The position numbers and the translations under genes were made by a program. 64,000 bases of DNA from Anaerolinea sp. (GTDB lineage Bacteria; Chloroflexota; Anaerolineae; Anaerolineales; Anaerolineaceae). A model generated the notes under the pieces. The model saw only the letters and a program-made list of their open reading frames with translations. It was not told where the DNA came from and ran no database searches. The first letter of the stretch is position 1. Every line of letters begins with the position of its first letter. Positions 15,835-41,115 of the stretch are shown piece by piece. Location: NCBI GenBank assembly GCA_020725865.1, contig DYEC01000001.1, forward strand, positions 62,001 to 126,000, read 5' to 3'.

Positions 15835-17832
15835 ATGCAAGAAGCCTTTGCTCTTTTTGTTTGGACATGTTTGTGGGCGTTAGGTGGAGTCTGGCTGCTT
15901 CGAGACGCCTTTAACCTGCGTCGCGATGAACAGGTGCTGGCTGGCGTTGGTCTAGGATTAGTTCTGGAAAATTGGCTAGCAAACCTGTTGGGGCGTTTTG
16001 TTTCTGTCCCTTTTGCGTTTTGGCTGGCGGCAGGATTGGTATTTCTATCAGGATTAGCAACGGGATTGATTGCCCGGCGCGACTGGCGTGCTTTTCTTGA
16101 AATTCCTATTCGTCCGTTGCAAGTTCTGGCTCTGGCTTTACTAGGGTATATGCTGTTTGCTGTGGGGCGTGGACTGGCTATTCTGGACGACTATCAAAAT
16201 CTTCCGATGACCTCGATCCTGGCCGCTGGTGATATACCGCCTCATTTCGCGCTCGATCCGAAACTTTCATTCAACTATCACTACGCGACATTGCTTTTTT
16301 CGGCACAGGTTATGCGTGTAGGTAATGTTTTTGTATGGACAGCGCTTGATTTGGTACGGGGTTTTGGTACAGCACTGGCGTTGATCCTGAGTGGGCTATT
16401 TGTACGACGCTTTACCCGTAGCAGTTTTTTGGGTTTTGTGGCGGTAATGTTTGGTCTGTTCAGTGGTGGGCTGCGCTGGGGAATGTTGCTTTTACCTGAG
16501 AACCTTTTAGAACAGCTTGGTCGGCAGATCACGTTTATTGGTTCAAGCGCAGGGCTTGGACCAAATTTTATTGATGCCCTGCTCAGCCCATTCCCCATTG
16601 AGTCGGGTGCAACCTGGAACTTTCCTTTTGCCTATATGGGCGGGATGGACACAGCAGCAGTCTGGACTTTTCAATCCGGTGCAGGTGGTTTGGGGGGCAT
16701 CATAACCGGTCTTCTACTGCTCAGTTATCATCACTGGCGCGGCTGGTTGGGCGGATTGGTGACTGTATTATTGTTATCAGCTTTGGCGCTCAGCAATGAG
16801 GTGGGTTTTGTGGGGCTGTGCGCTGGGCTGGTGTTGGTAGCTTTGGCTTATCTAATCCGTTACCGACGCATGATTCCAGGTTCATTGCGCAAGTGGTTTG
16901 TGGTAGCGTTTTTTGCTGGTCTTGTTACGTTGGTACAGGGTGGAGTGATCAGCGGTGTGTTTCTGGATGCGATCAATAACCTGTTTTTCCCCGTTGCTAC
17001 AGAGCAATCCTATTTTGGCGGTAGTCTTCATTTGCGCTGGCCGCCTGCTCTGTTATCTACTCATCTTGGCTATCTTGAATTAACCAATCCTTACCATTTA
17101 TTGGTTCTTTTCTTTGAATCCAACGGCTTGCTTTTGGTTGGTTTACCAATTGCTTTTGTCCTCGCATTTAAGGCTTTCCGTTCTGGACATTGGTATCTGG
17201 TGTTTGGGTTTGCTTGGTCGTTGGCATCAATTTTGCTTGCGTTTGCTCAGTATGCGGGTCCGGCAGGTCCAACAGCATTAACACGGGCGCAGGGTAGTTT
17301 GACTAGTTTGGGCGCGCTAGGTTTTACATACCTACCCTTTGTTGCCGCTAGACGTAAGGATTGGGTTAAGGTTGTAGTTGCCTGTCTGGTTTTGCTCAGC
17401 ATGTTTGGGGGGATGGTGTTATTCGGTTTTGAGTTGCTTTCGGCACCAAAGCCGATCTATTCCACTTTCATTGATGTGTTAGATGCCCAGATGATGCAAA
17501 GGCATTGGAATAGTCTGGAAACCGATGCGTTGATTTTTGATCCGATTTCGTACCGCGCGCCAACAGTGTTTGGCCGATTTACAAATTCCAACATTACCTG
17601 GTATCGCAGCAAACCAGAGTGGGAAAAGCTTACAGAAACACCTGATCCCTATGCGATCCGCTCTGCAGGTTTTGACTACATATACTTAGACCAAAAATAC
17701 TGGGATCAAATTGGCGCGAAAGGCCGGAAGTTGATTGAGGATACCTGTGTAAAGGTTTTTGATGAAGTCAGGGCGAAACGCACGGATGAATTTCGGCGGC
17801 TGCTGGACATTCGCAACTGTCAAAGAGAGTGA
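15835..17832 (+). CDS. Large polytopic membrane protein, GT-C-like (function unknown)
   Basis: This 665-residue protein is predicted to have about 13 membrane helices spanning residues 1-550 and an extracytoplasmic C-terminal domain of about 120 residues (with FDYIYLDQKYWDQIG). The first large loop holds ILDDYQ (residues 116-121) and FNYHYATLL (146-154), a layout like the acidic/aromatic first loop of GT-C glycosyltransferases and DUF2298-type proteins. It could transfer a polyprenyl-phosphate-linked sugar outside the membrane, or act as a polymerase. I recognise no specific family. It stops 7 bases before the next GT-C-like gene. Confidence 0.75.
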   Translation: MQEAFALFVWTCLWALGGVWLLRDAFNLRRDEQVLAGVGLGLVLENWLANLLGRFVSVPFAFWLAAGLVFLSGLATGLIARRDWRAFLEIPIRPLQVLALALLGYMLFAVGRGLAILDDYQNLPMTSILAAGDIPPHFALDPKLSFNYHYATLLFSAQVMRVGNVFVWTALDLVRGFGTALALILSGLFVRRFTRSSFLGFVAVMFGLFSGGLRWGMLLLPENLLEQLGRQITFIGSSAGLGPNFIDALLSPFPIESGATWNFPFAYMGGMDTAAVWTFQSGAGGLGGIITGLLLLSYHHWRGWLGGLVTVLLLSALALSNEVGFVGLCAGLVLVALAYLIRYRRMIPGSLRKWFVVAFFAGLVTLVQGGVISGVFLDAINNLFFPVATEQSYFGGSLHLRWPPALLSTHLGYLELTNPYHLLVLFFESNGLLLVGLPIAFVLAFKAFRSGHWYLVFGFAWSLASILLAFAQYAGPAGPTALTRAQGSLTSLGALGFTYLPFVAARRKDWVKVVVACLVLLSMFGGMVLFGFELLSAPKPIYSTFIDVLDAQMMQRHWNSLETDALIFDPISYRAPTVFGRFTNSNITWYRSKPEWEKLTETPDPYAIRSAGFDYIYLDQKYWDQIGAKGRKLIEDTCVKVFDEVRAKRTDEFRRLLDIRNCQRE

Positions 17833-17839
17833 GTGAGGA

Positions 17840-19705
17840 ATGTTCTGGCGGCTGTTTCATCGTTCGTGGTTTCAAACGGTACTGGCTCTGCTGGCTGTTG
17901 TCCTTTATGTGACGCAGTCATTTGTCCTTGCCCATACGATGGATGTGACAATGGACGAAGGTACTTACCTGACCAAAGGGCTTCTATTCGTACGCGGCGT
18001 TTATCGCCCGTTTCAGGAATACGGACCATTGACCAATAAAATGCCGTTGTCGTATTTGATACCTGGAATTGCTCAGGCGATATTTGAGCCCGGGTTACGC
18101 ACAGGTCGTTATTTTTCCATTTTTTTGAGCCTGCTTATGCTGGCAGGGTTATGGTGGTTAACTAGGCGCCTGGCGGGCAGGGGATGGGCGATTGGCATGT
18201 TGTGGGTTTCAGCGCTCAATCCGGCTAACTTGGCAAATTATACTCAGGCGCTATCGCAGGTCGTTACTGCCTGTCTGCTGGTATGGTCGTTTGTGTTTAT
18301 TCTCGGACAGAACAGGTCGTGGTGGCAAATCTCGCTGGGGTCGCTGTTGGCGGTTGCGGTGGTTTTAACCCGCCAGAATATGGCACCGGTGATTCCGTTT
18401 GTTCTTGCCTATATCTATTGGGAACATGGCTGGCGTAAAGGGACTTTGGCTCTTGTCGTATCGCTGTCGACTCTGGTAGTTAGTCACGCCATTTACTGGC
18501 CGGGCATTATGCAGATTTGGACGGATTTAACCCCTTCCCCGTTTAAACAATGGTTGTTTGGGCGTTTTATAGTTTCAAGAGGAGGGGGTATCTCTCTCTG
18601 GCGCAATGAACTAGGGACTTTTGCTAATCTTTTTTCATTTTGGGAAGGTGTACGTTTTAACTTTTTCGGTTTGGTGGGATCATTGCTGGCAGTGTTGATT
18701 TTGCCGCGGCCCAAAGGTTGGAAAAGTCTAGTATTGTTTCGCGCTTCAGTCATTTTGTTTGCATTGTTGACCGTACTGGTGGCGATACATTTGTATGCCG
18801 CCATTGGTAAGGATTATTGTACTTTTTGTTTTTCTCGATATATGGCGTTCTTCAGCCCGCTACTGATCTTGTTGGTGGTGATTTCATTTTCCTCTTGGCA
18901 GCGCAAGTTTCACCCTGTTCGGCAGATTCTAGCGGCTGGTCTGATCCTGGTGTGTTCTACCGGAATTGGGTTTGGCGCCTACCAGCATTTGGGTGGCTTG
19001 CTTGAAATCCCTGTGCCGCGTGTAAAGGAATTGCGTATTATGCCGGGCATGACAGAACTTTGGAGGCTACTCAGTAACAAGTTTGGATTAACCTATGAGC
19101 AGCTTCAGGTTATTTTGCCGACCGTTGCCGGGATGGTGTTTGGCATATTGTTTTTGCTGATAGTGTATTTGGGATATCGGGTATTATTCAAGCGTGGGCA
19201 GGTGGTTGGAAATTACGGATTTCTGTTGATTTGCTCCTTTCTTTTGATTGGAACTTTGTTATCACCAACCGGTCTGCTGGGCGGCGGTAAGTTGCCTTCA
19301 GATTGTGGCTGGGATGTAATCGCCTCGCATGAAGCGGTGGGTAATCATTTGCGGCAGTTGGTACCGGCGGGTGTGAAGGTGTACTGGATGAATGATGTAT
19401 CTCCCTTGCCATTGTTGTATCTGTTACCAGAAAACACCATTTATCCACCGCAATTAAACCACTGGTATACCTATCTGAAGGGTGGCAACCCCGAGAGGCT
19501 TTATCGTCTTGGCTTCTGGAATGATGCTCTGGATCAGCAATGGCGTGCAGAAGCAGATTATTTGCTGGTTGCCGAGCGATATGTAAAAGAATCGTTCTAT
19601 AATAATCTGGCGCAGATTGGTCATTTTGACGAACTGGCACCAACGCCACAAACGGTTCCCTGTCGAAACCGCTCGGTTATTCATATATTCCGTCGTATGT
19701 GGTGA
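17840..19705 (+). CDS. GT-C glycosyltransferase-like membrane protein (GT39/ArnT style)
   Basis: This 621-residue polytopic protein has the classic first-loop acidic motif of PMT/ArnT enzymes: MDEGTYLTKG (residues 38-47), followed about 20 residues later by PLTNKMPLSYLIPG. About 12 helices are expected, then a C-terminal extracytoplasmic domain (from about residue 490) with VKVYWMNDVSPLPLLY. These enzymes take a sugar from a polyprenyl phosphate and attach it to lipid, glycan or protein outside the cytoplasm. GTGAGTGAGGA precedes the ATG. The first gene of the locus is 7 bases upstream, and wecC follows after 92 bases. Confidence 0.78.
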   Translation: MFWRLFHRSWFQTVLALLAVVLYVTQSFVLAHTMDVTMDEGTYLTKGLLFVRGVYRPFQEYGPLTNKMPLSYLIPGIAQAIFEPGLRTGRYFSIFLSLLMLAGLWWLTRRLAGRGWAIGMLWVSALNPANLANYTQALSQVVTACLLVWSFVFILGQNRSWWQISLGSLLAVAVVLTRQNMAPVIPFVLAYIYWEHGWRKGTLALVVSLSTLVVSHAIYWPGIMQIWTDLTPSPFKQWLFGRFIVSRGGGISLWRNELGTFANLFSFWEGVRFNFFGLVGSLLAVLILPRPKGWKSLVLFRASVILFALLTVLVAIHLYAAIGKDYCTFCFSRYMAFFSPLLILLVVISFSSWQRKFHPVRQILAAGLILVCSTGIGFGAYQHLGGLLEIPVPRVKELRIMPGMTELWRLLSNKFGLTYEQLQVILPTVAGMVFGILFLLIVYLGYRVLFKRGQVVGNYGFLLICSFLLIGTLLSPTGLLGGGKLPSDCGWDVIASHEAVGNHLRQLVPAGVKVYWMNDVSPLPLLYLLPENTIYPPQLNHWYTYLKGGNPERLYRLGFWNDALDQQWRAEADYLLVAERYVKESFYNNLAQIGHFDELAPTPQTVPCRNRSVIHIFRRMW

Positions 19706-19797
19706 ATCGCTTTCACTTGTCAAATGCATCTGTGACCTGCGAGGCAAGTTAACAGAGAATTCATTAACGCAAATAAAAACTCTCACGACGAGGTGCT

Positions 19798-21099
19798 ATG
19801 AACTTTGAAAAAGTATGTGTTTTGGGATTAGGGTATATTGGCCTGCCTACGGCGGCCGTGTTGGCAGGGCATGGAATTAATGTGATTGGGGTGGATATCA
19901 ATCGAGATATTGTCAACGGCTTAAAGAACGGGAAAGTGCATATTTGTGAGGAAGGTCTTGACGAGCTGGTTACAGAAGCTCTTGGATCAAGGAAGTTGAA
20001 GGTTTGCACTGAACCCGAGCCCGCAGATGCTTTTATCATTGCTGTCCCTACGCCGTTTTATGAAGATAAACGTGCGGACATGCGCGCAGTGACTGCAGCT
20101 ACGGAAGCAATTGTCCCACACCTGCGCCGAGGCAATCTGGTGGTGTTAGAATCAACTTCACCGCCTTTGACCACACGCAATCTGGTTGTTCCCATCTTGG
20201 AACGTTCTGGATTGAAAGCGGGCGAAGATTTCTATGTTGTTTACTCACCAGAGCGCGTGCTTCCCGGGCGAATTTTGAAAGAACTAGTGGAAAACGCTCG
20301 CGTCGTTGGTGGAATAAATGAAACTTCAGGAGAAGCTGGCCGTGATCTGTACGGTATATTTTCCAAAGGGAAGATTGTTTTGACCGATTGCACAACGGCT
20401 GAGATGGTCAAGTTGATGGAAAACACTTATCGCGATATTAACATTGCCATTGCAAATGAGTTTTCTCGTCTGGCGGACCGCTTTGGCGTGGATATTTGGG
20501 AGGCGATTTCAATAGCCAACTTGCACCCAAGAGTGAAAATTCTGACGCCGGGGGTTGGTGTTGGAGGGCATTGTATTGGAGTTGATCCATGGTTTCTGGT
20601 TGAGGCTGCGCCGGAGTTTACTTCATTGGTTTATACTGCTCGACGGGTGAACGATGCCCAGCCACATTATGTAATAACGCTGGTACGGCGGGCGTTGCAG
20701 GACCAGCTTTTGGGAAAGCGAATTGCTGCATTAGGATTATCCTATAAACCAGATGTAGATGATCTACGAGAAAGCCCGGCGATTGAAGTGGTAAAAACAC
20801 TGGCTGAGGCGGGCGCCGTGGTTAAAGCCTATGAACCATACAAAGTGGATGCCATGATAGATGGGATTCAAACGGTTGATAGGTTAGAAACTGCGTTAAT
20901 TGATGCTGAAGTTGTTTTGCTGCTGGTTGGCCATAAACGATTTCTTTCTCTGACGCCGCAACAACTTGTCTCTCAAACACCCGCGCGCCTGCTGGTGGTT
21001 GCTGCCAATGCCTGGAGGGGGAAAGAATGGGTAGAGGCAGGGTTCAGGATGTTCCACCTTGGTGTGGGCAGGAGCGATATGTTTTTCCCGGCTGTATAG
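19798..21099 (+). CDS. wecC: UDP-N-acetyl-D-mannosaminuronate dehydrogenase family (WecC)
   Basis: This 433-residue NAD-dependent UDP-sugar 6-dehydrogenase oxidises a UDP-hexosamine to the uronic acid. The N-terminal Rossmann motif is GLGYIGLPTAAVLA (about residues 10-23). The catalytic Cys lies at residue 259 in GVGGHCIGVDPWF, and the C-terminal UDP-binding domain has LGLSYKPDVDDLRESP. The GHCIGVDP wording fits the WecC/WbpA amino-sugar branch rather than UDP-glucose dehydrogenase (Ugd). CGAGGTG lies just before the ATG. No wecB-like UDP-GlcNAc epimerase is in the window, so the exact uronate is not fixed. asnB follows 29 bases later. Confidence 0.9.
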   Translation: MNFEKVCVLGLGYIGLPTAAVLAGHGINVIGVDINRDIVNGLKNGKVHICEEGLDELVTEALGSRKLKVCTEPEPADAFIIAVPTPFYEDKRADMRAVTAATEAIVPHLRRGNLVVLESTSPPLTTRNLVVPILERSGLKAGEDFYVVYSPERVLPGRILKELVENARVVGGINETSGEAGRDLYGIFSKGKIVLTDCTTAEMVKLMENTYRDINIAIANEFSRLADRFGVDIWEAISIANLHPRVKILTPGVGVGGHCIGVDPWFLVEAAPEFTSLVYTARRVNDAQPHYVITLVRRALQDQLLGKRIAALGLSYKPDVDDLRESPAIEVVKTLAEAGAVVKAYEPYKVDAMIDGIQTVDRLETALIDAEVVLLLVGHKRFLSLTPQQLVSQTPARLLVVAANAWRGKEWVEAGFRMFHLGVGRSDMFFPAV

Positions 21100-21128
21100 C
21101 TGTCAACTTAAGGGACACCGAAAAAAGC

Positions 21129-23081
21129 ATGTGTGGTATCACCGGTTTTTTGACCCCTTCTTCAGGGATGACCCGCCAGGAAATGGAAACCTGCGTGAGA
21201 AACATGGCGCATACCGTCATTCACCGCGGTCCTGATGATCACGGGGTATGGGTGGATGAAACCTGTGGGATAGCTTTGGGGTTCCGCCGTCTAGCGATTT
21301 TAGACCTCTCACCGGGTGGGCATCAGCCGATGCTTTCAGCTAATGACCGTTATGTGATTATTTTTAATGGTGAGATTTATAATTTTGCCGAAATACGCCA
21401 AGAGTTGATTGATGCCGGACATCATTTTCGTAGCCGCTCAGATACTGAAGTGATGCTGGCATCATTTTGTGAGTGGGGTGTAGAAACTGCAGTCAGGCGT
21501 TTCAATGGTATGTTTGCCTTTGCGCTCTGGGATCAAACAGAGAAAGTTCTCTATCTGGTACGTGATCGTATTGGCATTAAGCCGTTGTATTACGGTTGGA
21601 ACAAGAATACCTTTCTGTTTGGGTCTGAGTTAAAAGCCCTTAGGGCGCACCCAGAGTTTGAGGCAGAGGTTAACCGCGATGCGCTGGCTCTGTATCTGCG
21701 TTATAGTTATATTCCTGCTCCTTATTCAATTTATCAAGGAATTTTCAAACTGTTACCAGGCACTATTCTTGTTCTCAAGAGTGGTGAACAAACACCGGTT
21801 TTTGTAACTTACTGGTCGGCGCGTGAAGTGGCAGAACATGGCATTAGTGAACCTTTTCATGGTGATGAGATTGAGGCAAGGCAAGAATTGGATCGGATCT
21901 TGCGCGAATCGGTGCGCTTGCGCATGATTGCTGATGTGCCGTTGGGTGCATTTCTATCTGGTGGGGTTGATTCTTCCACCGTGGTTGCTTTGATGCAGGT
22001 GCAGAGCATTATTCCTGTTAAGACATTTACGATTGGTTTTCATGAGTCAGATTACGATGAAGCCAGATTTGCGCGAAAGGTAGCAGCGCATTTAGGTACA
22101 GACCACACCGAATTGTACGTAACACCGAAAGAAGCCATGGAAGTCATCCCATATTTACCACAAATTTATGATGAGCCGTTTGCTGACAGTTCACAAATTC
22201 CAACTTTCCTGGTTTCCCGATTGGCGCGTCGTCATGTTACGGTGAGTTTATCGGGAGACGGCGGAGATGAATTGTTTGCCGGTTATGTGCGTCATCTCTG
22301 GTCTAAGCGAATTTGGAGGTATATTAGCTGGCTGGGTATTGGCGGTCGGCAGGCAGTTGGTTGGCTGGTTGGGAGGTTTACCCCTGCGCAGTGGGCAAAC
22401 CTGTTGAAATATTTGCAACAAGCTCTGCCATCAACCTATCGACAATCACTTCTGGCAGATAAGGTTCAAAAGTTTGCAAATATTCTGCGCGCAAAAGATG
22501 AACGCGAAATGTATCTAATCGAGGCTTCTCACTGGAAACAGCCGCAACAGGTTGTTTTGAGAGGGGCTGAGCCGCTTACGCCGTTCACAGATCCGGTGCA
22601 ATCTCCAATGTTTGATGATGTTTTATTCTGGATGATGTACATGGATCTGGTCACTTATCTGCCGGATGATATTCTGGTCAAGTTAGATCGTGCCAGCATG
22701 AATGTCAGCCTCGAAGCACGGGTTCCTCTTTTGGATGACCATCGAGTGGTTGAGTTTGCCTGGAGCTTGCCCATTAATTTCAAGCTGCGTAACGGCCAGG
22801 GTAAATGGCTATTGCGCCAGGTGCTTTACCAGTATGTGCCGGCTGAGTTGATCGAGCGCCCCAAAATGGGATTTGCCTTGCCTATTGATGGTTGGCTGAA
22901 GCATGAGTTGCGAGATTGGGCTGAAGCGTTGCTGGGTGAGACGCGTCTGCGCCGGGAAGGGTTCCTTAACCCTATTCCGATTCGTCAGAAGTGGCAGGAA
23001 CACTTGAGTGGTAAAGCAAACTGGCAATATGATATTTGGAGTATTCTATTGTTTGAGTCCTGGTTGGAATATTATTCTTGA
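21129..23081 (+). CDS. asnB: Asparagine synthase-type glutamine amidotransferase
   Basis: This 650-residue protein begins MCGITGF, so after Met removal Cys becomes the N-terminal glutaminase nucleophile; this fixes the start at 21129 even though the frame is open further upstream. An N-terminal Ntn glutaminase domain (HRGPDDHG near residue 34, RLAILDLSPGGHQPM) is followed by an ATP-pyrophosphatase domain with GAFLSGGVDSS and SGDGGDELFAGY. It makes an amide from glutamine, ATP and a carboxylate. Next to wecC in a polysaccharide locus, it may amidate a uronic acid sugar rather than aspartate; this is inference. No close Shine-Dalgarno is seen. Confidence 0.9.
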   Translation: MCGITGFLTPSSGMTRQEMETCVRNMAHTVIHRGPDDHGVWVDETCGIALGFRRLAILDLSPGGHQPMLSANDRYVIIFNGEIYNFAEIRQELIDAGHHFRSRSDTEVMLASFCEWGVETAVRRFNGMFAFALWDQTEKVLYLVRDRIGIKPLYYGWNKNTFLFGSELKALRAHPEFEAEVNRDALALYLRYSYIPAPYSIYQGIFKLLPGTILVLKSGEQTPVFVTYWSAREVAEHGISEPFHGDEIEARQELDRILRESVRLRMIADVPLGAFLSGGVDSSTVVALMQVQSIIPVKTFTIGFHESDYDEARFARKVAAHLGTDHTELYVTPKEAMEVIPYLPQIYDEPFADSSQIPTFLVSRLARRHVTVSLSGDGGDELFAGYVRHLWSKRIWRYISWLGIGGRQAVGWLVGRFTPAQWANLLKYLQQALPSTYRQSLLADKVQKFANILRAKDEREMYLIEASHWKQPQQVVLRGAEPLTPFTDPVQSPMFDDVLFWMMYMDLVTYLPDDILVKLDRASMNVSLEARVPLLDDHRVVEFAWSLPINFKLRNGQGKWLLRQVLYQYVPAELIERPKMGFALPIDGWLKHELRDWAEALLGETRLRREGFLNPIPIRQKWQEHLSGKANWQYDIWSILLFESWLEYYS

Positions 23082-23096
23082 GATAGGGATGGATTC

Positions 23097-24203: not shown

Positions 24204-24219
24204 TTTTGAGGTGTATGCT

Positions 24220-30735: not shown

Positions 30736-30893
30736 AGGAATCTGTGCGCTAGGGTTTATGAATACATCAACCCGGGGCTATGTAAGCAAGTGGTTGGATG
30801 AGCACGCCTCTGGCCTAAAAACCACCGTTTACTCATCTGGTCACTGCTCAGCTTTGAGTGGTGGCTGAAGAGATTTTAGGAGAGAATAAGACA

Positions 30894-31484
30894 ATGACTC
30901 TTGAGCAATTATCTTCAATAGAAAAATTGTTGGAAAGTTTCCACCAGCTTTACCAAAGTTTGCGCTTGAACATGCGCACCCAGTGGAAACGCGACTTGCC
31001 ACTGGAAGAATTGTTGTTTGATCGTTGGGAGCGTGCACGATCATTAGGCTTTGGGAAAAACACAAGCATTTATCACAATAGCTATGTGTACGGCACGGTC
31101 AGTGTCGGGGCTAATACCTGGATCGGACCTTATACTCTTCTGGACGGCACAGGGGGATTAACTATTGGCGATTACTGCAATATTAGCGCAGGGGTGCAAA
31201 TTTATACCCATGATAGTGCGCGCTGGGTGCTCTCTGGAGGTAAATCTAAATATGAGTATGCCCCTGTTAAGATCGGCAACAATTGTTACATTGGTCCACA
31301 AACAGTTATAGCGAAAGGTGTGACGATTGGAGATCATTGCCTGATTGGGTCATGCTCTTTTGTCAACTCAGACATACCTTCTTTCAGCCTCGCTTTTGGT
31401 ATCCCGTGTCGTCCTAGGGGAACGGTACGGGTAAGTGAGAATGGGGAAGTAAGCTGGCATCTTTTTGAGGCTGGTCAAAGTTAA
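30894..31484 (+). CDS. Hexapeptide-repeat (LbH) acyltransferase
   Basis: This protein of about 196 residues has a left-handed beta-helix built from hexapeptide turns (TVSVGANTWIGPYTLL, LTIGDYCNISAGV, VKIGNNCYIGPQTVIAKGVTIGDHCLIG) after an N-terminal helical part. The insertion IYTHDSARW holds a His in the position of the acceptor-deprotonating residue. It probably adds an acetyl or similar group to a sugar or UDP-amino sugar. A GTG at 30858 is in frame, but ATG 30894 has AGGAGAG nine bases upstream and is preferred. The coupled epimerase and aminotransferase upstream suggest N- or O-acetylation of their product. Confidence 0.88.
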   Translation: MTLEQLSSIEKLLESFHQLYQSLRLNMRTQWKRDLPLEELLFDRWERARSLGFGKNTSIYHNSYVYGTVSVGANTWIGPYTLLDGTGGLTIGDYCNISAGVQIYTHDSARWVLSGGKSKYEYAPVKIGNNCYIGPQTVIAKGVTIGDHCLIGSCSFVNSDIPSFSLAFGIPCRPRGTVRVSENGEVSWHLFEAGQS

Positions 31485-31516
31485 AACAATAAATCCTCTA
31501 CATTTATGGAGAGAAA

Positions 31517-32224
31517 ATGACGCGCGATAAAAATGCTGTAATTCGCAATCAACACGCCTCGCTGATACGGGTGATTCGAGCGCGTAATTATCGCACCTTA
31601 ATTGATTTGGGGTGTGGAAATGCTGAAATGGCGCTCTTTTTTGCTGGAGAGCTGGGGATGCAAGTGACGGCTGCGGATGAATTTGAAGGACATGGATCAG
31701 GTGTGCAGTTTGAAGAGATAAAAAAGAAGGTGAGCGCCTTAGGGCTGACAGACCAGGTCGCTGTTCTTAAATGGGATGCCCTGCAAGTTGGACAGTTGGA
31801 ACAAACATTTGATGTTGTCTTTATTCAGAACGTGCTGCATCACATTTTCCTCTGGCCAGAATCGAAAAATAGTGAGCTGGCGAAGCGTTTTTTCGAAGAC
31901 TTGAGAAAAATCATCTCGCCGGGAGGTTTGATTTATATTACCGACGCTGGGCGTTGGAATTTTTGGGATCGTCTTCACCGCCTTCTGCCCGGAAAGTGGT
32001 ATCAAGCAAAACTCTTTCGCTCAATTAATCAGGTGGACTTCAACACAAAGACGCCAGCCTCGGTCTGGCAGGCATATCTTAAGGAGGCGGGTTTCAACAC
32101 GTTGTTCTTTGAATACTACGTGCCTTATGAGTTTCGTCACTTAAGGTGGGCACTCAACAATCCGCTCGCCAACGTGTTTATTGAGTCGATCTATTCTATC
32201 GCTGCTGAATGTTCTAATTGTTGA
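31517..32224 (+). CDS. Class I SAM-dependent methyltransferase
   Basis: This 235-residue protein has SAM motif I LIDLGCGNAEMALFF (about residues 28-42), an acidic strand-2 end (VTAADEF), motif II FDVVFIQNVLHHI and a GGLIYITDAGRW post-motif. It is a free-standing Rossmann methyltransferase; in this locus the likely acceptor is a sugar or a lipid-linked glycan. It lies 32 bases after the acyltransferase with GGAGAGAAA in front of the ATG, so it probably belongs to the same transcript. The acceptor is unknown. Confidence 0.85.
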   Translation: MTRDKNAVIRNQHASLIRVIRARNYRTLIDLGCGNAEMALFFAGELGMQVTAADEFEGHGSGVQFEEIKKKVSALGLTDQVAVLKWDALQVGQLEQTFDVVFIQNVLHHIFLWPESKNSELAKRFFEDLRKIISPGGLIYITDAGRWNFWDRLHRLLPGKWYQAKLFRSINQVDFNTKTPASVWQAYLKEAGFNTLFFEYYVPYEFRHLRWALNNPLANVFIESIYSIAAECSNC

Positions 32225-32309
32225 CCTTAAACACAAAATTTTTTATCAATCCAGCAAAAGTTCAGGAAATTAAACATTAGCGAGGATCAATATTTCAGCC
32301 AAACGTTTA

Positions 32310-33776
32310 TTGAAAGAAAGTCTCGTCTATGGTATAGCAGGGACGGTAAATCGTTTTGTCGGCATCCTGCTGGTTCCCCTTTATACGCGGCTGTTTTCCC
32401 CTGCAGATTATGGCTTGCTGGATTTGTTGACCACTTCTTCGGCGTTGCTTTCTCTTTTAGCGGGTTTGCAGATTGAGTCCGGTCTAGCGCGTGAGTACTA
32501 TGAAGCAAAAGCCAAAGGTCGCGAGAGGGAACTTGTAGGCACTGCCCTGATAACGTCGTGCGTCAGCGATTTATTTTGGAGTATTGTAGCTTTCATTGTA
32601 TTCCACTTCATTATTCAAGGATATGCAGGGTTAAGCAACCTGCACTTGGCAGCTATCCTTTTGTCGCTTATTCCTTCCCATTTTATGTCCATTTGTCTTG
32701 TTCTGTTGCGCTTTCAACGCCGCGCTGGAGTTTTCCTCTTTTTTTCTTCAGGCGATATTCTAACAAGCACGCTGTTGACTATTTATTTGGTGGTGTATCA
32801 GCATTGGGGTATCTTAGGAGTGCTTTGGGGGTTGTGTATTTCCAAGATGATCTGGGCTTCTTTCATGCTGTTGATGCTGCGTCAACATTTGCGGCTGGCA
32901 TGGTGTCGAGAGCTGGCGCAGCGAGTGCTGCTTTATAGTGTTCCGCTGATACCGGCTGTGCTCACCAAATGGGGACAGAATTACGCCAATCGCTTCATTA
33001 TGGCTGCCACGTTTACGCTTACTGATTTGGGAATTTACAGTCTAGCTGTGAAGATTGCTTCCGGGCTTGCGCTGGTTGATATAGCTTTTCGTATGGCATG
33101 GGATCCATACGCGATTGAACTGATGGGGGAAGACGGCTTTGAAAAGAGATATGCCCGCACGTTTGATTTTTACTTGTTAGGGATGTTTGCATTAAGCGCC
33201 TCCGTGGTTTTATTGGGCACGCCGATTGTGAGGATCATGACTACTCAGGCTTATCAGGATGCCGGCAGGTTGGTTGGGCTGATTGCTGTTGGTTTGTTCT
33301 GGACAAGTATGGATAAGTTCTTTGCGCTGGGCAACAGCGTCGTGCGAAAGACGTACTGGAATCTAGCCGGTTATTTTCCCGGGGTTTTAATCAATCTTTT
33401 AGCATTGTGGATGTTTGGAAATCGCTGGGGCTTGTTTGCTGCGGGGATGGCTTACATTCTGGGTGGAGTTGTGAGTTCCAACGCGCTCTTGTGGGTGGCT
33501 CAAAAAAATCATTATGTGCCTTATCGAAACCGCGTTGTGGCTTTCTCTCTCTTATTATCCGTGTCATATGCCGTGTGGACCTATCTGGCTGAGCCAATTG
33601 CCTTGCAGTTGATCTCGCCAGGCTTGTGGCTCCTCATCAATGGGGCAATAGGAGCAATCCTGATTTTACTGCTGAGTTGGTCTATATTCTCTATTAAGGT
33701 TATCAGAGAGTGGAGTCTTAGTACATTGTCTTATCTAATCGGACGGTATCAAAGATGGTCGAAAAGAAACTATTGA
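32310..33776 (+). CDS. Wzx/MATE-fold polysaccharide flippase
   Basis: This protein of about 488 residues has roughly 12-14 membrane helices and the N-terminal signature KESLVYGIAGTVNRFVGILLVPLYTRLFSPADYG, quoted here as its two halves KESLVYGIAG and LLVPLYTRLFSPADYGLLDL. These exporters flip polyprenyl-linked glycans across the membrane. TTG at 32310 gives the shortest plausible N-terminus, but no ribosome-binding site precedes it. The frame is open back to 32274, and an ATT at 32292 sits five bases after GAGGA, giving the family-like start ISAKRLLKESL. It follows the methyltransferase by 85 bases. Confidence 0.88.
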   Translation: MKESLVYGIAGTVNRFVGILLVPLYTRLFSPADYGLLDLLTTSSALLSLLAGLQIESGLAREYYEAKAKGRERELVGTALITSCVSDLFWSIVAFIVFHFIIQGYAGLSNLHLAAILLSLIPSHFMSICLVLLRFQRRAGVFLFFSSGDILTSTLLTIYLVVYQHWGILGVLWGLCISKMIWASFMLLMLRQHLRLAWCRELAQRVLLYSVPLIPAVLTKWGQNYANRFIMAATFTLTDLGIYSLAVKIASGLALVDIAFRMAWDPYAIELMGEDGFEKRYARTFDFYLLGMFALSASVVLLGTPIVRIMTTQAYQDAGRLVGLIAVGLFWTSMDKFFALGNSVVRKTYWNLAGYFPGVLINLLALWMFGNRWGLFAAGMAYILGGVVSSNALLWVAQKNHYVPYRNRVVAFSLLLSVSYAVWTYLAEPIALQLISPGLWLLINGAIGAILILLLSWSIFSIKVIREWSLSTLSYLIGRYQRWSKRNY

Positions 33777-33837
33777 AAATCAAAGAATCCGGGTGAGACA
33801 GGCAAATCTGTTTTGTCGGCATTGAGAGGAATAAAGT

Positions 33838-35430
33838 ATGCAAACCGGCATTTTGTTTTTTATTTTTATAACGGTCGTTTTAGTGGGGGTTGTTTTGAGA
33901 ATACTGCCAAGGTTCTTGCATCCCTGTGTTGTCGACTCAGATACGGTTTACCATTTGCTGGTAGCCGAGCGGGTTAGAGAGAACCGTTTTCGCTTGCCGC
34001 AATTTGTTCAAGGTTTTATTTTGCAAACGCCTTACACCTATCCGCCCCTGTACCACTATCTGTTAGCGTTGATGCCAAGGCGCTTGCGTGAGAGTGCTGA
34101 ACCCTATATGGGGGCATTGATAGATACGTTGCATGCCGTATCAATTTTCCTGTTTTGCTTCTGGGCTGATTGGTTTGCTGATTTATCTTCAGGCTGGCAA
34201 GTTCAGCTCGTACCAGTTTTAGCGATGTTTGTCTTTTTGACGTACCCGGCGCTTCTCAACGCAGTACCTTTGCGTGTTTATCAGGGTACCCCCAGACCGT
34301 TGGGAGAGTGGCTATTTTCTACAGCCATGTTCTCGCTGGGGATTTATATCGCACAAGGAAATAGCATTTGGTTTATCTCTGCTGTGTTGGCTGCTGCCCT
34401 GTTGTTGCTTTGCAGCAAGTTTGGCGCTCAGGCGTTTTTATTTACCTCGACTTTTATGGCTGTATGGATGAATAAACCGAACTTGTTGCTGCTAATGCCA
34501 TTGGCGATTGTTACCGCAACCTTGATTTCTAAAGGGCATTACTTGAAAGTACTGTGGGGGCAGATTCAACATTCAATTTTCTATCAGCGTTATATTATTA
34601 AATCCCATCCCGTAAAAGAACGAAATCAACTCAGCGATTTGCTGCACTTACCCAAAGATTTATTTCTCAATCCCAAGAAGGCTTTTCAAATTTTATATGA
34701 AAAGAATACTTTTTCAGCATTAATCATCAGAAATCCATACCTTTTGTTGGCGGGTTATTTTTTGTTGTTATCGCCAAGCGCACTTCTTAGTGAATTTAGA
34801 TTTTTGTTCGGATGGGTACTTGGTTGTATCTTTGCCTTTGTTGTCACTTCTCTGCGACCTTTCCTGTTTCTCGGTGAAGCAGAACGTTATGTAGAATATG
34901 CAGTTCCTGCGATCAGCGTGCTTATCCCGGCTTTTTTATTTGAATATGGAAATAAAACTAGCTGGCTGATTGGGCTTGTAATTTTTTTGTATTCATTGGC
35001 TTTTGCTGTAGGAAATCATTTTCTCATTTTCCGTAAGTGTTCTAAACAAAAGCGTGAAGAGCTTGACACGTTGGTAAGATGGCTAATTCGGATTCAAAAA
35101 ACCCAAAGAATTCTTCCAATCCCTGCTCATTTTTTGGGGCGCATCTTGGTCAAAGAGACCCATCATCAGGCTTTATTTTTTAGCGACAATTTGAGTGAAA
35201 AATACTTGAGTGGCGAGGAGTTTTTGCGGGTTTTTCCTCAATACCCATTCCCAAGCGAGGATTTTGAATATTTAGCAAGCCAATATCAAATTGACTTAAT
35301 TGTATGTGAAAAACAATCTATGCTACAAGCAGCAAAACGAGGTCTTATGTATGACTTCTCCAGCTGGTCACTCATATTTGAGAACGGTGAATATGCGGTT
35401 TATCAAAGAACCAGTAATCTGGAGAGATAA
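33838..35430 (+). CDS. GT-C-like polytopic membrane protein (function unknown)
   Basis: This 530-residue protein has about 11 helices and a C-terminal soluble domain from about residue 415. After the first helix comes VDSDTVYHLLVAERVRENRF (residues 32-51), then YTYPPLYHYLLAL, the acidic then PP-aromatic pattern of GT-C glycosyltransferases. AGAGGA lies seven bases before the ATG. It follows the flippase by 61 bases and could transfer a sugar in the extracytoplasmic space or act in polymerisation. No specific family recognised. Confidence 0.72.
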   Translation: MQTGILFFIFITVVLVGVVLRILPRFLHPCVVDSDTVYHLLVAERVRENRFRLPQFVQGFILQTPYTYPPLYHYLLALMPRRLRESAEPYMGALIDTLHAVSIFLFCFWADWFADLSSGWQVQLVPVLAMFVFLTYPALLNAVPLRVYQGTPRPLGEWLFSTAMFSLGIYIAQGNSIWFISAVLAAALLLLCSKFGAQAFLFTSTFMAVWMNKPNLLLLMPLAIVTATLISKGHYLKVLWGQIQHSIFYQRYIIKSHPVKERNQLSDLLHLPKDLFLNPKKAFQILYEKNTFSALIIRNPYLLLAGYFLLLSPSALLSEFRFLFGWVLGCIFAFVVTSLRPFLFLGEAERYVEYAVPAISVLIPAFLFEYGNKTSWLIGLVIFLYSLAFAVGNHFLIFRKCSKQKREELDTLVRWLIRIQKTQRILPIPAHFLGRILVKETHHQALFFSDNLSEKYLSGEEFLRVFPQYPFPSEDFEYLASQYQIDLIVCEKQSMLQAAKRGLMYDFSSWSLIFENGEYAVYQRTSNLER

Positions 35431-35523
35431 GCTATTTATCAACCAGCTCTTTCGTTTTGCATTTCTCGAAGGCGCCACTCTACCACTTTAGGGAGTGGCT
35501 AAAGACTGGGGTAAAATATAAGT

Positions 35524-36763: not shown

Positions 36764-37879
36764 ATGGAAGCGAATGTGTCAACAAAAGTCGACCTGACAA
36801 TTTTTTTACCTAATTTGGAAGCGGGTGGGGCTGAGCGTGCTTTAACCCGATTGGCAAATTATTTTGCCAGGCAGGGGTTGCAGGTTGATATGGTCTTGGT
36901 TCAAGCAGGTGGTGCGTTATTGAAAGAGTTATCTGAACGGGTTCGGGTAGTTGACTTGGCAGCCCATAGCAAATATACCTGTACGCCCAAATTAATTAAA
37001 TACTTAAGGAAGTATCGTCCGAGAGTATTGCTTTCTTCGCTTGTCTTGACGAATTTGTTAGCGGTCATTTGTAACCGCTTAACAGGCTCGATTACCCGTG
37101 TTGTGGTACGAGAGGCTAGCACTTTGTCATATTTGAGAAGAAACTCAAAATGGAAAAAATGGTTGGAACGAACGTTGGTGCGAATCTTATATCCACAGGC
37201 TAATGCAGTGATTGCAGTTTCTCAAGGCGTTGCTAATGATTTGGTCAACTATACAGGAATTTCTGAGAGTATTATTGAAGTCATCCCCAATCCAGTGATT
37301 ACTGATGAATTGTTTCAAAAGGCTTCAGAAAAGGTGGGGCATCCATGGGTAAATCCTGACCAACCGCCACTGGTTTTGAGTGCAGGAAGATTAGCGCCGG
37401 AAAAAAACTATGAATTATTATTACGTGCTTTTGCTATGGTGCGACAATCAATGCAAGCTCATTTATTGATATTAGGCGAGGGATCAGAACGTCAAAAATT
37501 ATGCACATTGGTGCGCTCGCTGGGTATAGAAACCGATGTTGACATGCCAGGTTTTACGCAAAATCCATTTGCTTATATGAGTAAAGCTTCAGTTTTTGTT
37601 TTATCCTCTATACTTGAGGGATTACCTAATGTATTAATAGAGGCAATGGCTTGTGGCTGTCCAGTGGTCAGTACGGACTGTCCTTCTGGGCCAAACGAGA
37701 TCTTACGGGGGGGCAAATATGGTCATCTTGTACCTGTAAATGATGTGCCTGCTATGGCACAGGCCATTGAAGCTGTATTAAGAGGGGATCGTCGTATGCC
37801 AACCGCTAAGTGGCTTGAACAGTATAGGATTGAATCGGTTGCCAGACGCTACCACCAAGTTTTAGAACTCCCCAATTAA
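36764..37879 (+). CDS. GT4 family glycosyltransferase
   Basis: This 371-residue GT-B enzyme has the N-terminal glycine-rich entry LEAGGAERALTRLANYF (acceptor side), a donor site with SAGRLAPEKNYELLLRAF, and the catalytic E-x7-E region SILEGLPNVLIEAMACGCPVV (about residues 285-305). This is the common pattern for enzymes that extend lipid-linked glycans from UDP- or GDP-sugars at the cytoplasmic membrane. TGAGGAA is nine bases before the ATG. It is the first gene after the dead IS1-like element, so it is probably transcribed from its own promoter. Confidence 0.9.
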   Translation: MEANVSTKVDLTIFLPNLEAGGAERALTRLANYFARQGLQVDMVLVQAGGALLKELSERVRVVDLAAHSKYTCTPKLIKYLRKYRPRVLLSSLVLTNLLAVICNRLTGSITRVVVREASTLSYLRRNSKWKKWLERTLVRILYPQANAVIAVSQGVANDLVNYTGISESIIEVIPNPVITDELFQKASEKVGHPWVNPDQPPLVLSAGRLAPEKNYELLLRAFAMVRQSMQAHLLILGEGSERQKLCTLVRSLGIETDVDMPGFTQNPFAYMSKASVFVLSSILEGLPNVLIEAMACGCPVVSTDCPSGPNEILRGGKYGHLVPVNDVPAMAQAIEAVLRGDRRMPTAKWLEQYRIESVARRYHQVLELPN

Positions 37880-37945
37880 CAGGTGGTATAATTCCTGCCA
37901 GTCTGCCGGGGTGCTGGCAGTCATTCTTTGCGGCGATACGTTTGG

Positions 37946-39106
37946 ATGAGTAAACCCAATCCCCAAACAATCCTGTTTGTTGGGTCACAGATGGCGGTAG
38001 GCGGTTCGCAGATGGTTTTGCTGCAGCTTGCCGATTGGTTTCACGCGCAGGGTTACCATGTGGCAGCGGCGTTTTTTTACGACCGCGACGGGCTGGCGGA
38101 AAAATGGCAAGAGCGTTATTCTTTCCCTGTGGTCGATTTGCAAGCATGGAAGAAGGGCCCTGCCGTGCTAAAGCCGCTCTGGCTAGTGCGCGGGATACTG
38201 CGGCTGTTTTTGCTGATACGCCGCGAACGTTTCTCGGCGGTGATGGCGTTTACCCATCACAGCAATTTGTTGGCGTTGCCGCTGGCGTGGCTGGCGGGGA
38301 TACCGGTTCGTGTGGCTTCGCATCGCGGGCGGATTCTCGGTTTTCCCCGCTGGCAGGAACGGCTACATGCCTGGATGGTCAACAGCCGGATGGCAACCTG
38401 TCTGGTGGCAGTTTCGGAACAGGTGCGAGCGGAGTCTATCGAGGAAGGCGTGCGCCCGGCAAAGATCAGGGTTATCCCAAATGGTGTCAGCCTGACAACA
38501 GTAAAAAAGGCTGAACGCCAGCGTCTGCGCCGAGAGGCGGGCGTTCAGCCGAAGGGTTATCTGATCGTGAGCGCCGGACGTCTCTGGCCAGAAAAGGGAC
38601 ATATTCATCTGGTGCGGGCAATGCCGATGGTTGCGGAGCAGTTGCCGCGTGCTGTGCTGGCAATTGCCGGCGACGGCGTTTTGCGACCTGAATTGGAGGC
38701 AGAAGCTCAGGCACTGGGGGTTGCCGGGTATATTCGGTTTTTAGGTGTGCGTTCTGATGTGCGCGCGTGGTTTGCCGCGGCGGATTTGTTTGTCCTGCCC
38801 TCCAATTCGGAAGGGATGCCGATGGCTTTGTTGGAAGCGATGGGGATGGGTGCACCCGTTGTTGCTACCCGCGTAGGCGGTGTGCCGGAACTTGTGCGGG
38901 ATGGAGAAACCGGTAAACTTGTCCCGCCGCAAAATCCGTCTGCGCTGGCAGAAGCCATTGTTTCATTACTGCGAGACAAGGCGGAACGTGCTCGTTTGGC
39001 GCAAAACGGGCAGATTTATGTCATGAAGTATTATTCGGTTGAAAAGATGTATGAGCGGTATATGCGTCTGCTGGTCCCTGCAGCATTTGAGGTGAACGGC
39101 GAATGA
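37946..39106 (+). CDS. GT4 family glycosyltransferase
   Basis: This GT-B enzyme of about 386 residues opens QTILFVGSQMAVGGSQMVLLQL and carries the donor-binding SAGRLWPEKGHIHLVRAM and the E-x7-E motif SNSEGMPMALLEAMGMGAPVV, followed by ATRVGGVPELVRDG. It resembles enzymes that add hexoses to polysaccharide repeat units. The ATG at 37946 was chosen over an in-frame TTG at 37928; neither has a good ribosome-binding site. Its stop overlaps the next gene (ATGA). Confidence 0.9.
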   Translation: MSKPNPQTILFVGSQMAVGGSQMVLLQLADWFHAQGYHVAAAFFYDRDGLAEKWQERYSFPVVDLQAWKKGPAVLKPLWLVRGILRLFLLIRRERFSAVMAFTHHSNLLALPLAWLAGIPVRVASHRGRILGFPRWQERLHAWMVNSRMATCLVAVSEQVRAESIEEGVRPAKIRVIPNGVSLTTVKKAERQRLRREAGVQPKGYLIVSAGRLWPEKGHIHLVRAMPMVAEQLPRAVLAIAGDGVLRPELEAEAQALGVAGYIRFLGVRSDVRAWFAAADLFVLPSNSEGMPMALLEAMGMGAPVVATRVGGVPELVRDGETGKLVPPQNPSALAEAIVSLLRDKAERARLAQNGQIYVMKYYSVEKMYERYMRLLVPAAFEVNGE

Positions 39107-41115
39107 GGGAACGGCATCTCTCTCCTTCGGTAGTCTTTCGCATCCTTGCTACGCTAGCACTGGTCGCTTTTTCAGTTGGTATCGTTGGCGATATGCGGGT
39201 GCGTTTTGAACCTGCTCTGCGGGCTGGAACCGAATTTCCGCGCACATTTGCGCTGGCAATCGCGGCATGGCTGGGCTTTATAGTTATTGTACTGGTACAA
39301 ATCTGGTTTCCCCGTTTCTACCAGCCATTGATCCATTTGCGTAGTAAGCTGAGCTTACTGGGCATCATCGTCGCGGTTTTACTGGGAGTTTTCATAAGCT
39401 GGTTTTTCCTGTACACAATCTGGAGTGAGGTATTCAGCGGATTTTATCTGCGGTTGCTGTTTTATCTGTTGGTTTTGTGGCTGATGTCATGGTTTCTAAC
39501 GCGCACACCCGGTCAGGTGATTGGCTGGAATGGTTTACTGGCTGGTATCGTTTTGCTGGGTGGTATGTTTACACTAGTGCAGGCTTCCACGGGGGTAACC
39601 AGTTATCCTTTTGGGTTGTCCTGGTCAGAAGGTAATCGTCTGTGGGATTATTCAGTTTTGTATGGAAAACATTTGTACAATTTCCCGCAAGATAAAACGA
39701 TCCCGGCTTATATTGATCTGGGCCGCCAAAGCCTGTGGGGTCTGCCTTTTTTACTGCCGGAGGTGACAATTGCAGAAGTGCGTTTTTGGAGTGCTTTTCT
39801 TTTTACCATACCCTATGCTTTACTGGGATGGTTTGTTTTTCGCTCGCTGAAAAACCGTCCGGCATTGTGGCTGCTGGCGGGGCTGTGGAGCATGTTGTTT
39901 CTCAATCAAGGACCGATATACACCCCGTTGATTTTGATTGCCATTCTTGCCGTTGCTACACGCCCGATGCCTCTCTGGCTGGGTTCGTTATTTGTCATGC
40001 TGGCAAGTTTTTATGCTGTCAGAACGCGGGTCACGTGGATGTTTGCAGCGGGGATCTGGGCGGCACTGATTGCTTTCATTGAGCTTAATCCTAAAGGTGT
40101 TAAGAGCTCCTTTCAGCGCTGGCTGCGGGCAGTTGTACTGGGGCTTTCTGGAGTAATTGGCAGCAATCTAATTCCTCTGGTTGTACGGTTGATTGTAAGT
40201 TACCAAAGTGGTGCGCCGGTGAAAGCCACAACCGCAGTCGAAACTGCAGTTGGTTCTGTAGGAAGGCAACCGTTGCTCTGGGACCGTTTGTTGCCCAACC
40301 CGACCTATCCTCCGGGAATTTTGCTTGGGTTACTGATGGCAACGGGTCCGCTGGTGGTTTTGTTCTTGATTTGTGGCGTCCGCCAATGGAAACTTAACCT
40401 CTGGCAAAAGCTGGCAATCTGGGGCAGCGCGCTGGCATTTCTGGGCGTTGGGTTGGTTGTAAGTGTTAAGATTGGCGGTGGCAGTAATCTCCATAATCTG
40501 GATATGTTTCTAATCACACTGCTGATTCTTGCCGGACTGGCATGGGAGGCGGGCATTTTTTCATGGGCGTTAGCACCTCGAGGGCGTACACGGATTCTGC
40601 ATCTACTGCTATTGCTGGCTTTTATAATCCCGGCTTCAAATGGAATGATGAGCGCGTCACCGCGCAACTTGCCGGGACCTGAGAAAGTGCAACCTGCACT
40701 GGAAGCCATCCGGGAAGCGATACGAGATGTCGGCACAGATGGTGAGGTATTGTTTATTGATCAGCGCCAACTGCTGACTTTTGGTTTAGTACCTTCGGTC
40801 CCGTTAATTCCTGAATACGAGAAGAAACGAATGATGGATGAGGCAATGGCGGAGAACGCTGCCTATTTTGCGCCTTTCTACCGCGATTTGTATAACCGCC
40901 GTTTTGCTTTGATCATCAGCGAACCGCTCTGGATCAAGTTTCAGGGTCAAACCTATCAGTTCGGCAATGAAAATGATGCCTGGGTAAAATGGGTTTCTAT
41001 ACCAGTTTTGTGTTATTATCAACCGGTTGAAACCTTCCTGGATGTGGGTATTCAGTTGCTGGTACCGCGTGAAGGGACGTTCTCTGAGACTGAAATACCC
41101 TGTCCTGTTCCATAA
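39103..41115 (+). CDS. Large polytopic membrane protein, GT-C-like
   Basis: This 670-residue protein has about 13 membrane helices, a loop near residue 174 with SWSEGNRLWDYSVLYGK and a later LGRQSLWGLPFLLP. It ends in an extracytoplasmic domain from about residue 530 (VLFIDQRQLLTFGL) that resembles the C-terminal domains of the other giant membrane proteins of this locus. A polyprenyl-phosphate-sugar dependent transferase or a polymerase role is plausible; there is no firm family. It is coupled to the GT4 gene before it. Confidence 0.72.
   Translation: MRERHLSPSVVFRILATLALVAFSVGIVGDMRVRFEPALRAGTEFPRTFALAIAAWLGFIVIVLVQIWFPRFYQPLIHLRSKLSLLGIIVAVLLGVFISWFFLYTIWSEVFSGFYLRLLFYLLVLWLMSWFLTRTPGQVIGWNGLLAGIVLLGGMFTLVQASTGVTSYPFGLSWSEGNRLWDYSVLYGKHLYNFPQDKTIPAYIDLGRQSLWGLPFLLPEVTIAEVRFWSAFLFTIPYALLGWFVFRSLKNRPALWLLAGLWSMLFLNQGPIYTPLILIAILAVATRPMPLWLGSLFVMLASFYAVRTRVTWMFAAGIWAALIAFIELNPKGVKSSFQRWLRAVVLGLSGVIGSNLIPLVVRLIVSYQSGAPVKATTAVETAVGSVGRQPLLWDRLLPNPTYPPGILLGLLMATGPLVVLFLICGVRQWKLNLWQKLAIWGSALAFLGVGLVVSVKIGGGSNLHNLDMFLITLLILAGLAWEAGIFSWALAPRGRTRILHLLLLLAFIIPASNGMMSASPRNLPGPEKVQPALEAIREAIRDVGTDGEVLFIDQRQLLTFGLVPSVPLIPEYEKKRMMDEAMAENAAYFAPFYRDLYNRRFALIISEPLWIKFQGQTYQFGNENDAWVKWVSIPVLCYYQPVETFLDVGIQLLVPREGTFSETEIPCPVP

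Follow-up and report, generated by a model that had tools for sequence, protein, structure and literature searches.

The stretch of 64,000 nucleotides analysed here (hereafter the window) stems from Anaerolinea sp. (GenBank assembly GCA_020725865.1, contig DYEC01000001.1, positions 62,001 to 126,000 of the forward strand) and carries a glycan locus on its + strand, at about 15.8-42 kb. The reading preferred here, with a probability of roughly 0.55, is that this is an undecaprenyl diphosphate (undecaprenyl-PP)-type heteroglycan locus of an Anaerolineales bacterium, and that one of its five large polytopic proteins, P5, belongs to a module that recurs in the order. This module would consist of P5 beside a GT4 glycosyltransferase (GT4c) and a methyltransferase-like protein (MTb), in relatives often also beside the polytopic protein P1, and would add or attach a shared glycan part within otherwise variable loci. 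The window lies on contig C25, in a genome of 3.12 Mb that is 99.03% complete. Besides the five polytopic proteins (P1-P5), the locus codes for nucleotide-sugar enzymes, an AsnB-like amidotransferase, three GT4 glycosyltransferases, a WecA-like initiating transferase, a Wzx-type flippase, a hexapeptide acyltransferase, and two methyltransferase-like proteins. The polytopic proteins and the two direct neighbours of P5 are the following (aa, amino acids; bp, base pairs; GT-C, glycosyltransferase fold C):

15835..17832, + strand: P1, 665 aa, predicted GT-C-fold protein; acidic pair D118-D119 at 16186-16191
17840..19705, + strand: P2, 621 aa, putative PMT_2-like GT-C with D39-E40 motif; start 7 bp past P1
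25260..27854, + strand: P3, 864 aa, putative PMT_2-like GT-C with long N-terminal membrane extension; 10 bp overlap with the WecA-like gene
33838..35430, + strand: P4, 530 aa, probable remote GT-C, near-orphan; D33 and D35
37928..39106, + strand: GT4c, GT4 glycosyltransferase, first cassette gene; PF13692 3.2e-43; 4 bp overlap with P5
39103..41115, + strand: P5, 670 aa, member of an order-restricted family of predicted GT-C fold; E176 at 39628-39630; GGGxNLHNLD (458-467) at 40474-40503
41118..41957, + strand: MTb, methyltransferase-like, third cassette gene; PF13489 1.5e-4, under cut-off; mechanical TTG start 2 bp past P5

Distribution and gene neighbourhood of P5

The P5 family is common in its order and absent outside it within the sample searched, without being universal. 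A profile search of 400 genomes of the phylum retrieved P5 from 29 of them: besides the own genome, six belong to its family and a further 22 to its order. The remaining 371 genomes gave no match, and no other order is represented among the matches. Seven further genomes of the same family or order in this sample lacked P5. No more than three preliminary candidates were scored in any genome, which may have caused a few misses, and the order was represented mainly by two families. Among the own genome and 60 relatives (n=61), matches were found in 41 genomes for P5, 29 for P1, 25 for P2, 30 for P3, and two for P4, the latter being the own genome and one weak match. Within the order, a single-sequence search, which is less sensitive, placed P5 in 30 of 37 genomes from its own family and in 11 of 24 from elsewhere in the order, spread over 6 of the 14 other families sampled. 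The wider contig collection (genome_contigs) contained 284 relatives of P5, the best 80 of which come from records titled Chloroflexi or Chloroflexota, Anaerolineae, Anaerolineales, Anaerolineaceae, or genera that we take to belong to the Anaerolineae; the locus counts given below rest on these best 80 of 284. The P5 rows of alignment A6 are mostly 40-63% identical to P5 of the window. Two or three P5-family genes each were found in several genomes (G043, G047, G060, and G217), indicating that the family includes paralogues.

The 748 neighbours within six genes of P5 at the 80 loci fell into 249 clusters. The gene before P5 belonged to one large GT4 cluster at 48 of the 80 loci, and the gene behind it to the MTb cluster at 31. 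When relatives of the window proteins were counted (E<=1e-8, 60% coverage; many flanks end at contig ends), a relative of GT4c stood immediately upstream of P5 in 32 of the 72 loci with room, and a relative of MTb immediately downstream in 31 of the 74 loci with room; two GT4 open reading frames that overlap the P5 frame by 60-200 bp were counted as adjacent. Indeed, 32 of the 43 frames with GT4c as best match and 31 of the 35 with MTb as best match occupied this one position, and therefore the cassette association is not due to chance, though far from universal. The MTb relatives directly behind P5 (31 loci) were 49-55% identical to MTb, despite its weak Pfam methyltransferase match. Another GT-C of the PMT type (one representative, L176:9289-10929, matches PF02366 at 7.3e-18) occurred in 29 of the 80 loci, 17 times at the +2 place, where it is not found in the window.

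The remaining surroundings of P5 vary between loci. At the 80 loci, relatives of the epimerase were retrieved 24 times, of the AsnB-like protein 18 times, of P3 17 times, of the DegT-like protein nine times, and of the Wzx-type flippase and the GT4 glycosyltransferase GT4a once each, and no relatives of the WecA-like protein, the methyltransferase MTa or P4 were present. P1 recurs with P5 as well. P5 was present in 28 of the 29 genomes that contain P1 (versus 41/61 overall), and both were encoded on the same contig in 21 of these 28 genomes, within 5 kb in 19 and within 150 bp in 11; in all of these last 11 pairs, P5 precedes P1 on one strand. One P1 fragment of G054 was left out of the distance tally, leaving the genome counts unaffected.

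Relation of the five polytopic proteins to GT-C enzymes

All five polytopic proteins are best read as GT-C glycosyltransferases, with support that differs between them, and transfer from a polyprenyl-linked donor is the predicted activity. The initial annotation, made from the sequence alone, had described five giant, mutually divergent GT-C-like membrane proteins with acidic residues in an early loop and a C-terminal extracytoplasmic domain. Its coordinates and lengths were exact; the word giant was overstated, the 530-864 aa of these proteins being usual for GT-C enzymes. Their divergence was evident from BLASTP, in which the best of the ten pairs (P1-P4) reached E 0.003 and the other nine E >= 0.1. 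A simple hydropathy threshold, which undercounts, yielded 10, 9, 13, 6, and 13 hydrophobic segments for P1 to P5, respectively, and left 134, 141, 153, 132, and 154 residues past the last of these. Hence, the tails (132-154 residues) occur in all five proteins as claimed, and their location outside the membrane is a prediction. Apart from a few chance rows, P1-P5 themselves had no believable Pfam or NCBIfam match, and sequence searches of the PDB with the alignments A1-A4 and with P4 gave no believable match either (one chance row, E 0.11). Besides the respective window protein, the family alignments contain 20 near-complete, stop-free places out of 38 others for P1 (A1), 22 out of 31 others for P2 (A2), the paralogue L002 plus 18 further rows selected among those with loci for P3 (A3), and 22 other places for P5 (A4). 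A5 adds to P1 eight P1 frames from the 80 P5 loci, one of them partial, A6 adds to P5 44 P5 frames from these loci, and A7 adds to P4 17 out of 18 other places, L211 being left out.

Structure models support a GT-C-like fold for the cores of P1 and P5. The AF2 model of P5 (45 sequences) had a predicted local distance difference test score (pLDDT) of 91.0 and a predicted template modelling score (pTM) of 0.91. In VIA, it was closest to ArnT (Z 10.0; root-mean-square deviation (rmsd) 6.3 over 421 residues), followed by yeast STT3 and ALG12; the first 14 rows were all GT-C enzymes (314-447 residues, Z 10.0-7.5), and the first unrelated row (Z 7.2) was aligned over only 63 residues of N-terminal helices. 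Similarly, the first eight Foldseek rows were all GT-C with a probability of 1.00, among them AftA (5.1e-5), as were all six matches at E<=0.001. The AF2 model of P1 (nine sequences; pLDDT 73.7, pTM 0.79) was matched in VIA by STT3A (Z 14.2; rmsd 8.0, 464 residues), ArnT (Z 13.9; rmsd 6.1, 427 residues), and AglB (Z 13.8), which are tied within 1 Z unit. Classed by entry titles, the first 36 rows (Z 14.2-6.6) were GT-C or GT-C-like, whereupon Z dropped to 3.7; they include what we take to be chain U of the glycosylphosphatidylinositol (GPI) transamidase, which is GT-C-like, and the STT3 chain of 9n9j. The first 13 Foldseek rows of P1 were likewise all GT-C (E 3.2e-4 to 3.1e-2, probability up to 1.00), and the first unrelated row had a probability of 0.11. 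A transporter identity was rejected for both proteins, the transporter rows shown by Foldseek having probabilities <=0.16; the comparison thus returned GT-C enzymes and not unrelated transporters. No WaaL or SEDS chain was named among the VIA and Foldseek rows shown for P1 and P5, which does not rule out a GT-CB fold. By our own count from the helix list of the model, the core of P5 comprises 11 helices (142-162 to 497-516), two of which are short; a published account mentions 11 core helices in all GT-C members (PMC6801728). Before the core, about three extra N-terminal helices were read from the model of P1 and four from that of P5.

Acidic early-loop residues, noted in most of the five proteins by the initial annotation, were retrieved in all of them and are conserved in their relatives. 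P1 carries a motif of the DxD/DD type (either acid allowed) in its predicted first luminal loop, with D118 and D/E119 each in 21/21 family rows, a few residues past the helix that opens the modelled core (94-111). D39 and E40 of P2 are present in 23/23 rows, D274 and D279 of P3 each in 19/20. P4 has D33 and D35, and all 17 of its distant relatives have an aspartate at alignment column 34 (14 rows) or 35 (three rows). In P5, position 176 is acidic in 45/45 rows (42 E, 3 D), and D182, six residues further, is found in 42/45 rows of A6 and in 16/23 of the more distant set A4. In addition, K456, G460, H464, N465, and D467 of P5 are invariant in both A6 (45/45) and A4 (23/23), and the K456-D467 cluster lies at the junction of helices 433-454 and 464-482. 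Invariant polar residues include R227, R395, K456, H464, N465, D467, and R555 in P5 (45/45 rows), and D118, H149, E322, E428, and R484 in P1 (21/21 rows).

To judge from their models and alignments, P1 and P5 share their core fold, the acid or acids in the first core loop, and a C-terminal domain past the last membrane helix with GT-CA-type enzymes, namely ArnT (presumably GT83), STT3/PglB/AglB (presumably GT66), the arabinosyltransferases (presumably GT53), and PMT (presumably GT39). They differ from these enzymes in their extra N-terminal helices, in the single acid of P5 instead of DxD/DD, and in that neither family has a believable sequence match in the PDB or Pfam. The four families GT83, GT66, GT53, and GT39 are given as GT-CA in PMC10920833. 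Profile comparison with hhalign sets P1 and P5 apart from P2 and P3: P5 versus P1, P2, and P3 gave probabilities of 1.9-7.2%, P1 versus P2 24%, and P1 versus P3 16%, none of which is a link. The 23 scanned members of the P5 family gave scattered single library hits that were mutually inconsistent. To judge from the model of its fold, the lack of a library model, its restriction to one order within the sample, and its recurrent gene context, P5 makes a good candidate for a hitherto undescribed GT-C family. Membership of P1 in DUF2298 (PF10060) was considered and rejected, for only one of 21 family members matched that model (E 0.024) and the other 20, the window protein included, did not. In PMC8756737, DUF2298 and PMT_2 proteins appear as neighbours in gene tables of Chloroflexi, without further study there.

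For P2 and P3, a GT-C assignment is supported via relatives that match PMT_2 (PF13231). Scanned singly, 15 of the 23 members of the P2 family (best 6.9e-9) and 9 of the 20 members of the P3 family (best 2.2e-8) matched this model, and the two family profiles are related (hhalign probability 83.7%). The window proteins P2, P3, and P4 do not match the PMT_2 Pfam model and are filed as relatives rather than members of that family, from which P3 differs in addition by its long N-terminal membrane extension. P4 had matches in 16 of the 400 phylum genomes, the own genome included, most of them weak. Its tie to GT-C is the weakest of the five and may be drawn from its remotest relatives, its early-loop aspartates, and a profile match to the P2 family (hhalign probability 88%); in its loose alignment, the rows of which are 15-21% identical to P4, seven of 18 rows match PMT_2 (best 1.4e-10) and six match PTPS_related. 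The claim of a GT-C fold can thus be upheld for P1 and P5 by models and for P2 and P3 via relatives, and more weakly for P4. A near full-length paralogue of P3 (31% identity over residues 10-840) occurs in the own genome (L002:1501-3957; G000:C17:5052-7508). A scan of the wider contig collection with P3 gave 20 stretches, none of which was a relative.

The presence of five GT-C proteins in one locus had been considered special. This was refuted, since the own genome contains 15 PMT_2 matches beyond P1-P5, 13 of them above the curated cut-off, four of which (L241, L244, L245, and L251) lie within 23 kb (C2:190.7-213.7 kb), with four GT2 matches at C2:185-215 kb. The number of GT-C proteins in the window is therefore ordinary for this genome.

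Role of P5 and alternative readings

P5 recurs across the order with the same partners in otherwise variable loci, and it would therefore handle a shared step rather than a strain-specific one. Such a step would concern a sugar or an acceptor common to these glycans and is more likely than strain-specific decoration; the extensive sugar decoration proposed by the initial annotation is doubtful for P5, as the same neighbours recur in many genomes of the order. Catalysis by P5, its donor type, its acceptor, its topology, and its role in a shared step are all predicted. With regard to donors, the own genome has 19 GT2 matches and two GtrA matches, and at least five of the GT2 proteins (L222, L224, L225, L227, and L229) have two to three hydrophobic segments close to their C-terminus that resemble those of GtrB/DPM enzymes. 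Hence, polyprenyl-phosphate-type donors may be available in this genome. The three-component GT136 system for extracytoplasmic glycosylation in Citrobacter (PMC11127046) likewise contains GT-C enzymes amid O-antigen-type genes, and its further components, a GT2 protein with C-terminal hydrophobic segments and GtrA, have counterparts in the own genome. Unlike that system, the window is without a donor synthase or GtrA match, and P5 is flanked by a GT4 gene and a methyltransferase-like gene.

Several observations weigh against the preferred reading. None of the GT2 donor synthase or GtrA matches is tied to the locus, with none in the window itself. P5 lacks the strict DxD/DD spacing and has one acid, E176; in PMC6801728, DxD/DD in the first luminal loop is ascribed to all GT-C enzymes, and a plain GT-C filing of P5 is weakened by this departure. 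For a helical protein, the Z of 10 reached by P5 is modest, and the confidence of the P1 model is middling, with 84 residues below a pLDDT of 50. The three nearest relatives of P4 (L205-L207) match neither PMT_2 nor PTPS_related. Both cassette partners stand beside P5 in only 12 of the 67 loci with room on both sides. P1 and P5 are on different contigs in seven of 28 genomes (many of the assemblies being fragmented), P1 comes first in G044 and G057, the two genes lie on opposite strands in G018, and they are 21 kb apart in the window and 15 kb apart in G031. Finally, P5 is present in only 11 of the 24 genomes of the order outside its own family, for which reason the term order-wide was dropped.

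Part of the same evidence could also mean that P5, by itself or jointly with P1, takes the place of Wzy, in line with the non-canonical polymerase that the initial annotation had named as an option, polymerising or ligating the Wzx-exported undecaprenyl-PP repeat unit on the extracytoplasmic side with a lipid-PP-oligosaccharide as donor. The locus has a Wzx-type flippase and an initiating transferase, and a scan of 20 proteins from the 15.8-45.9 kb interval, P1-P5 included, listed no match to Wzy_C (PF04932) at E<=0.1, in agreement with the earlier statement that no clear Wzy is present; one of 23 relatives of P2 matched it at E 0.097. Moreover, P5 recurs in the order while most of its neighbourhood varies, P5 and P1 recur as a pair, and GT-CA holds one family that uses a lipid-PP-oligosaccharide, GT66, according to PMC10920833. 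Yet three Wzy_C proteins are encoded on other contigs of the genome and could work in trans, both models resemble GT-C enzymes like STT3, ArnT, and AftA, and polysaccharide polymerases are described in the same source as extremely diverse in sequence, unlike the P5 rows with their identity of mostly 40-63%. A replacement of Wzy by P5 is unlikely on this balance. Polymerisation may take place in trans, may be absent, or may be performed by P5 or P1, the last being at best unlikely. Quite unlikely is the most far-reaching version, in which P5 founds an order-specific GT-C family and forms with P1 a two-protein extracytoplasmic polymerase or ligase in place of Wzy/WaaL, the acceptor of which would be assembled and methylated by GT4c and MTb.

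That P1 (or P4) is an oligosaccharyltransferase of a pgl-like protein glycosylation locus, moving a lipid-linked oligosaccharide en bloc to protein, is very unlikely. The top Z of P1 is that of STT3A, with AglB and PglB following, and the PglJ-like GT4b, the PseC-like aminotransferase, and the hexapeptide acyltransferase of the locus resemble a bacillosamine-type pathway; however, STT3A, ArnT, and AglB are tied for P1, the WWD motif typical of the C-terminal domain of STT3/PglB/AglB is absent from all five polytopic proteins, and the STT3 family (PF02516) was not listed for any of them at E<=0.1. An equally small probability attaches to P1 and/or P5 being transporters of lipids or glycans, or scaffolds for the other proteins without catalytic activity, instead of glycosyltransferases. 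A fold proves no function, the early-loop motif of P5 is atypical, and the match of P1 to chain U of the GPI transamidase, the role of which is non-catalytic, illustrates that a GT-C-like fold can lack catalysis; against this stand the many invariant polar residues of both families and the low probabilities of the transporter rows. If P5, as preferred here, handles a shared glycan step, it would represent a trait of the cell envelope that much of the order shares, and its recurrent gene context indicates which genes to study jointly. To our knowledge, little has been published on the surface glycans of Anaerolineales, and among titles and abstract starts of the open-licence literature, no paper on Anaerolineales GT-C enzymes or the P5 family was found.

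Further genes of the locus

The other genes of the locus, with their best family matches, are the following (SAM, S-adenosylmethionine):

19798..21099, + strand: nucleotide-sugar dehydrogenase, nearest to UDP-ManNAc dehydrogenase; TIGR03026 431.1 bits, above cut-off; PRK11064 432.8 versus a cut-off of 459
21129..23081, + strand: AsnB-like glutamine amidotransferase; TIGR01536 507.7 bits, above cut-off; PF00733
23097..24203, + strand: GT4a, GT4 glycosyltransferase; PF13692 1.1e-32, PF00534
24124..25269, + strand: WecA/MraY-type initiating phosphoglycosyltransferase; PF00953 1.8e-34; TIGR02380 103.4 bits, under cut-off
28264..29220, + strand: NAD-dependent epimerase/dehydratase; PF01370 1.9e-56; TIGR01181 168.9 bits, under cut-off
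29217..30356, + strand: DegT/PseC-like sugar aminotransferase; PF01041 4.6e-108; PseC 341.5 bits versus a cut-off of 423.5
30858..31484, + strand: hexapeptide acyltransferase; PF00132 9.1e-20
31517..32224, + strand: MTa, SAM methyltransferase; PF08241 4.5e-8
32310..33776, + strand: Wzx-type flippase; PF13440 1.9e-10 and PF01943 5.3e-10, both above cut-off
36764..37879, + strand: GT4b, GT4 glycosyltransferase, PglJ-like; PF00534 4.4e-37; NF050063 184 bits versus a cut-off of 500

The start of the AsnB-like gene was set at the residues MCG (21129), the mechanical open reading frame beginning at 21027, and the true start of the WecA-like gene may lie downstream of 24124. Between P4 and GT4b (35524-36251), a degenerate IS1-type transposase-like element with a frame break was read by eye.

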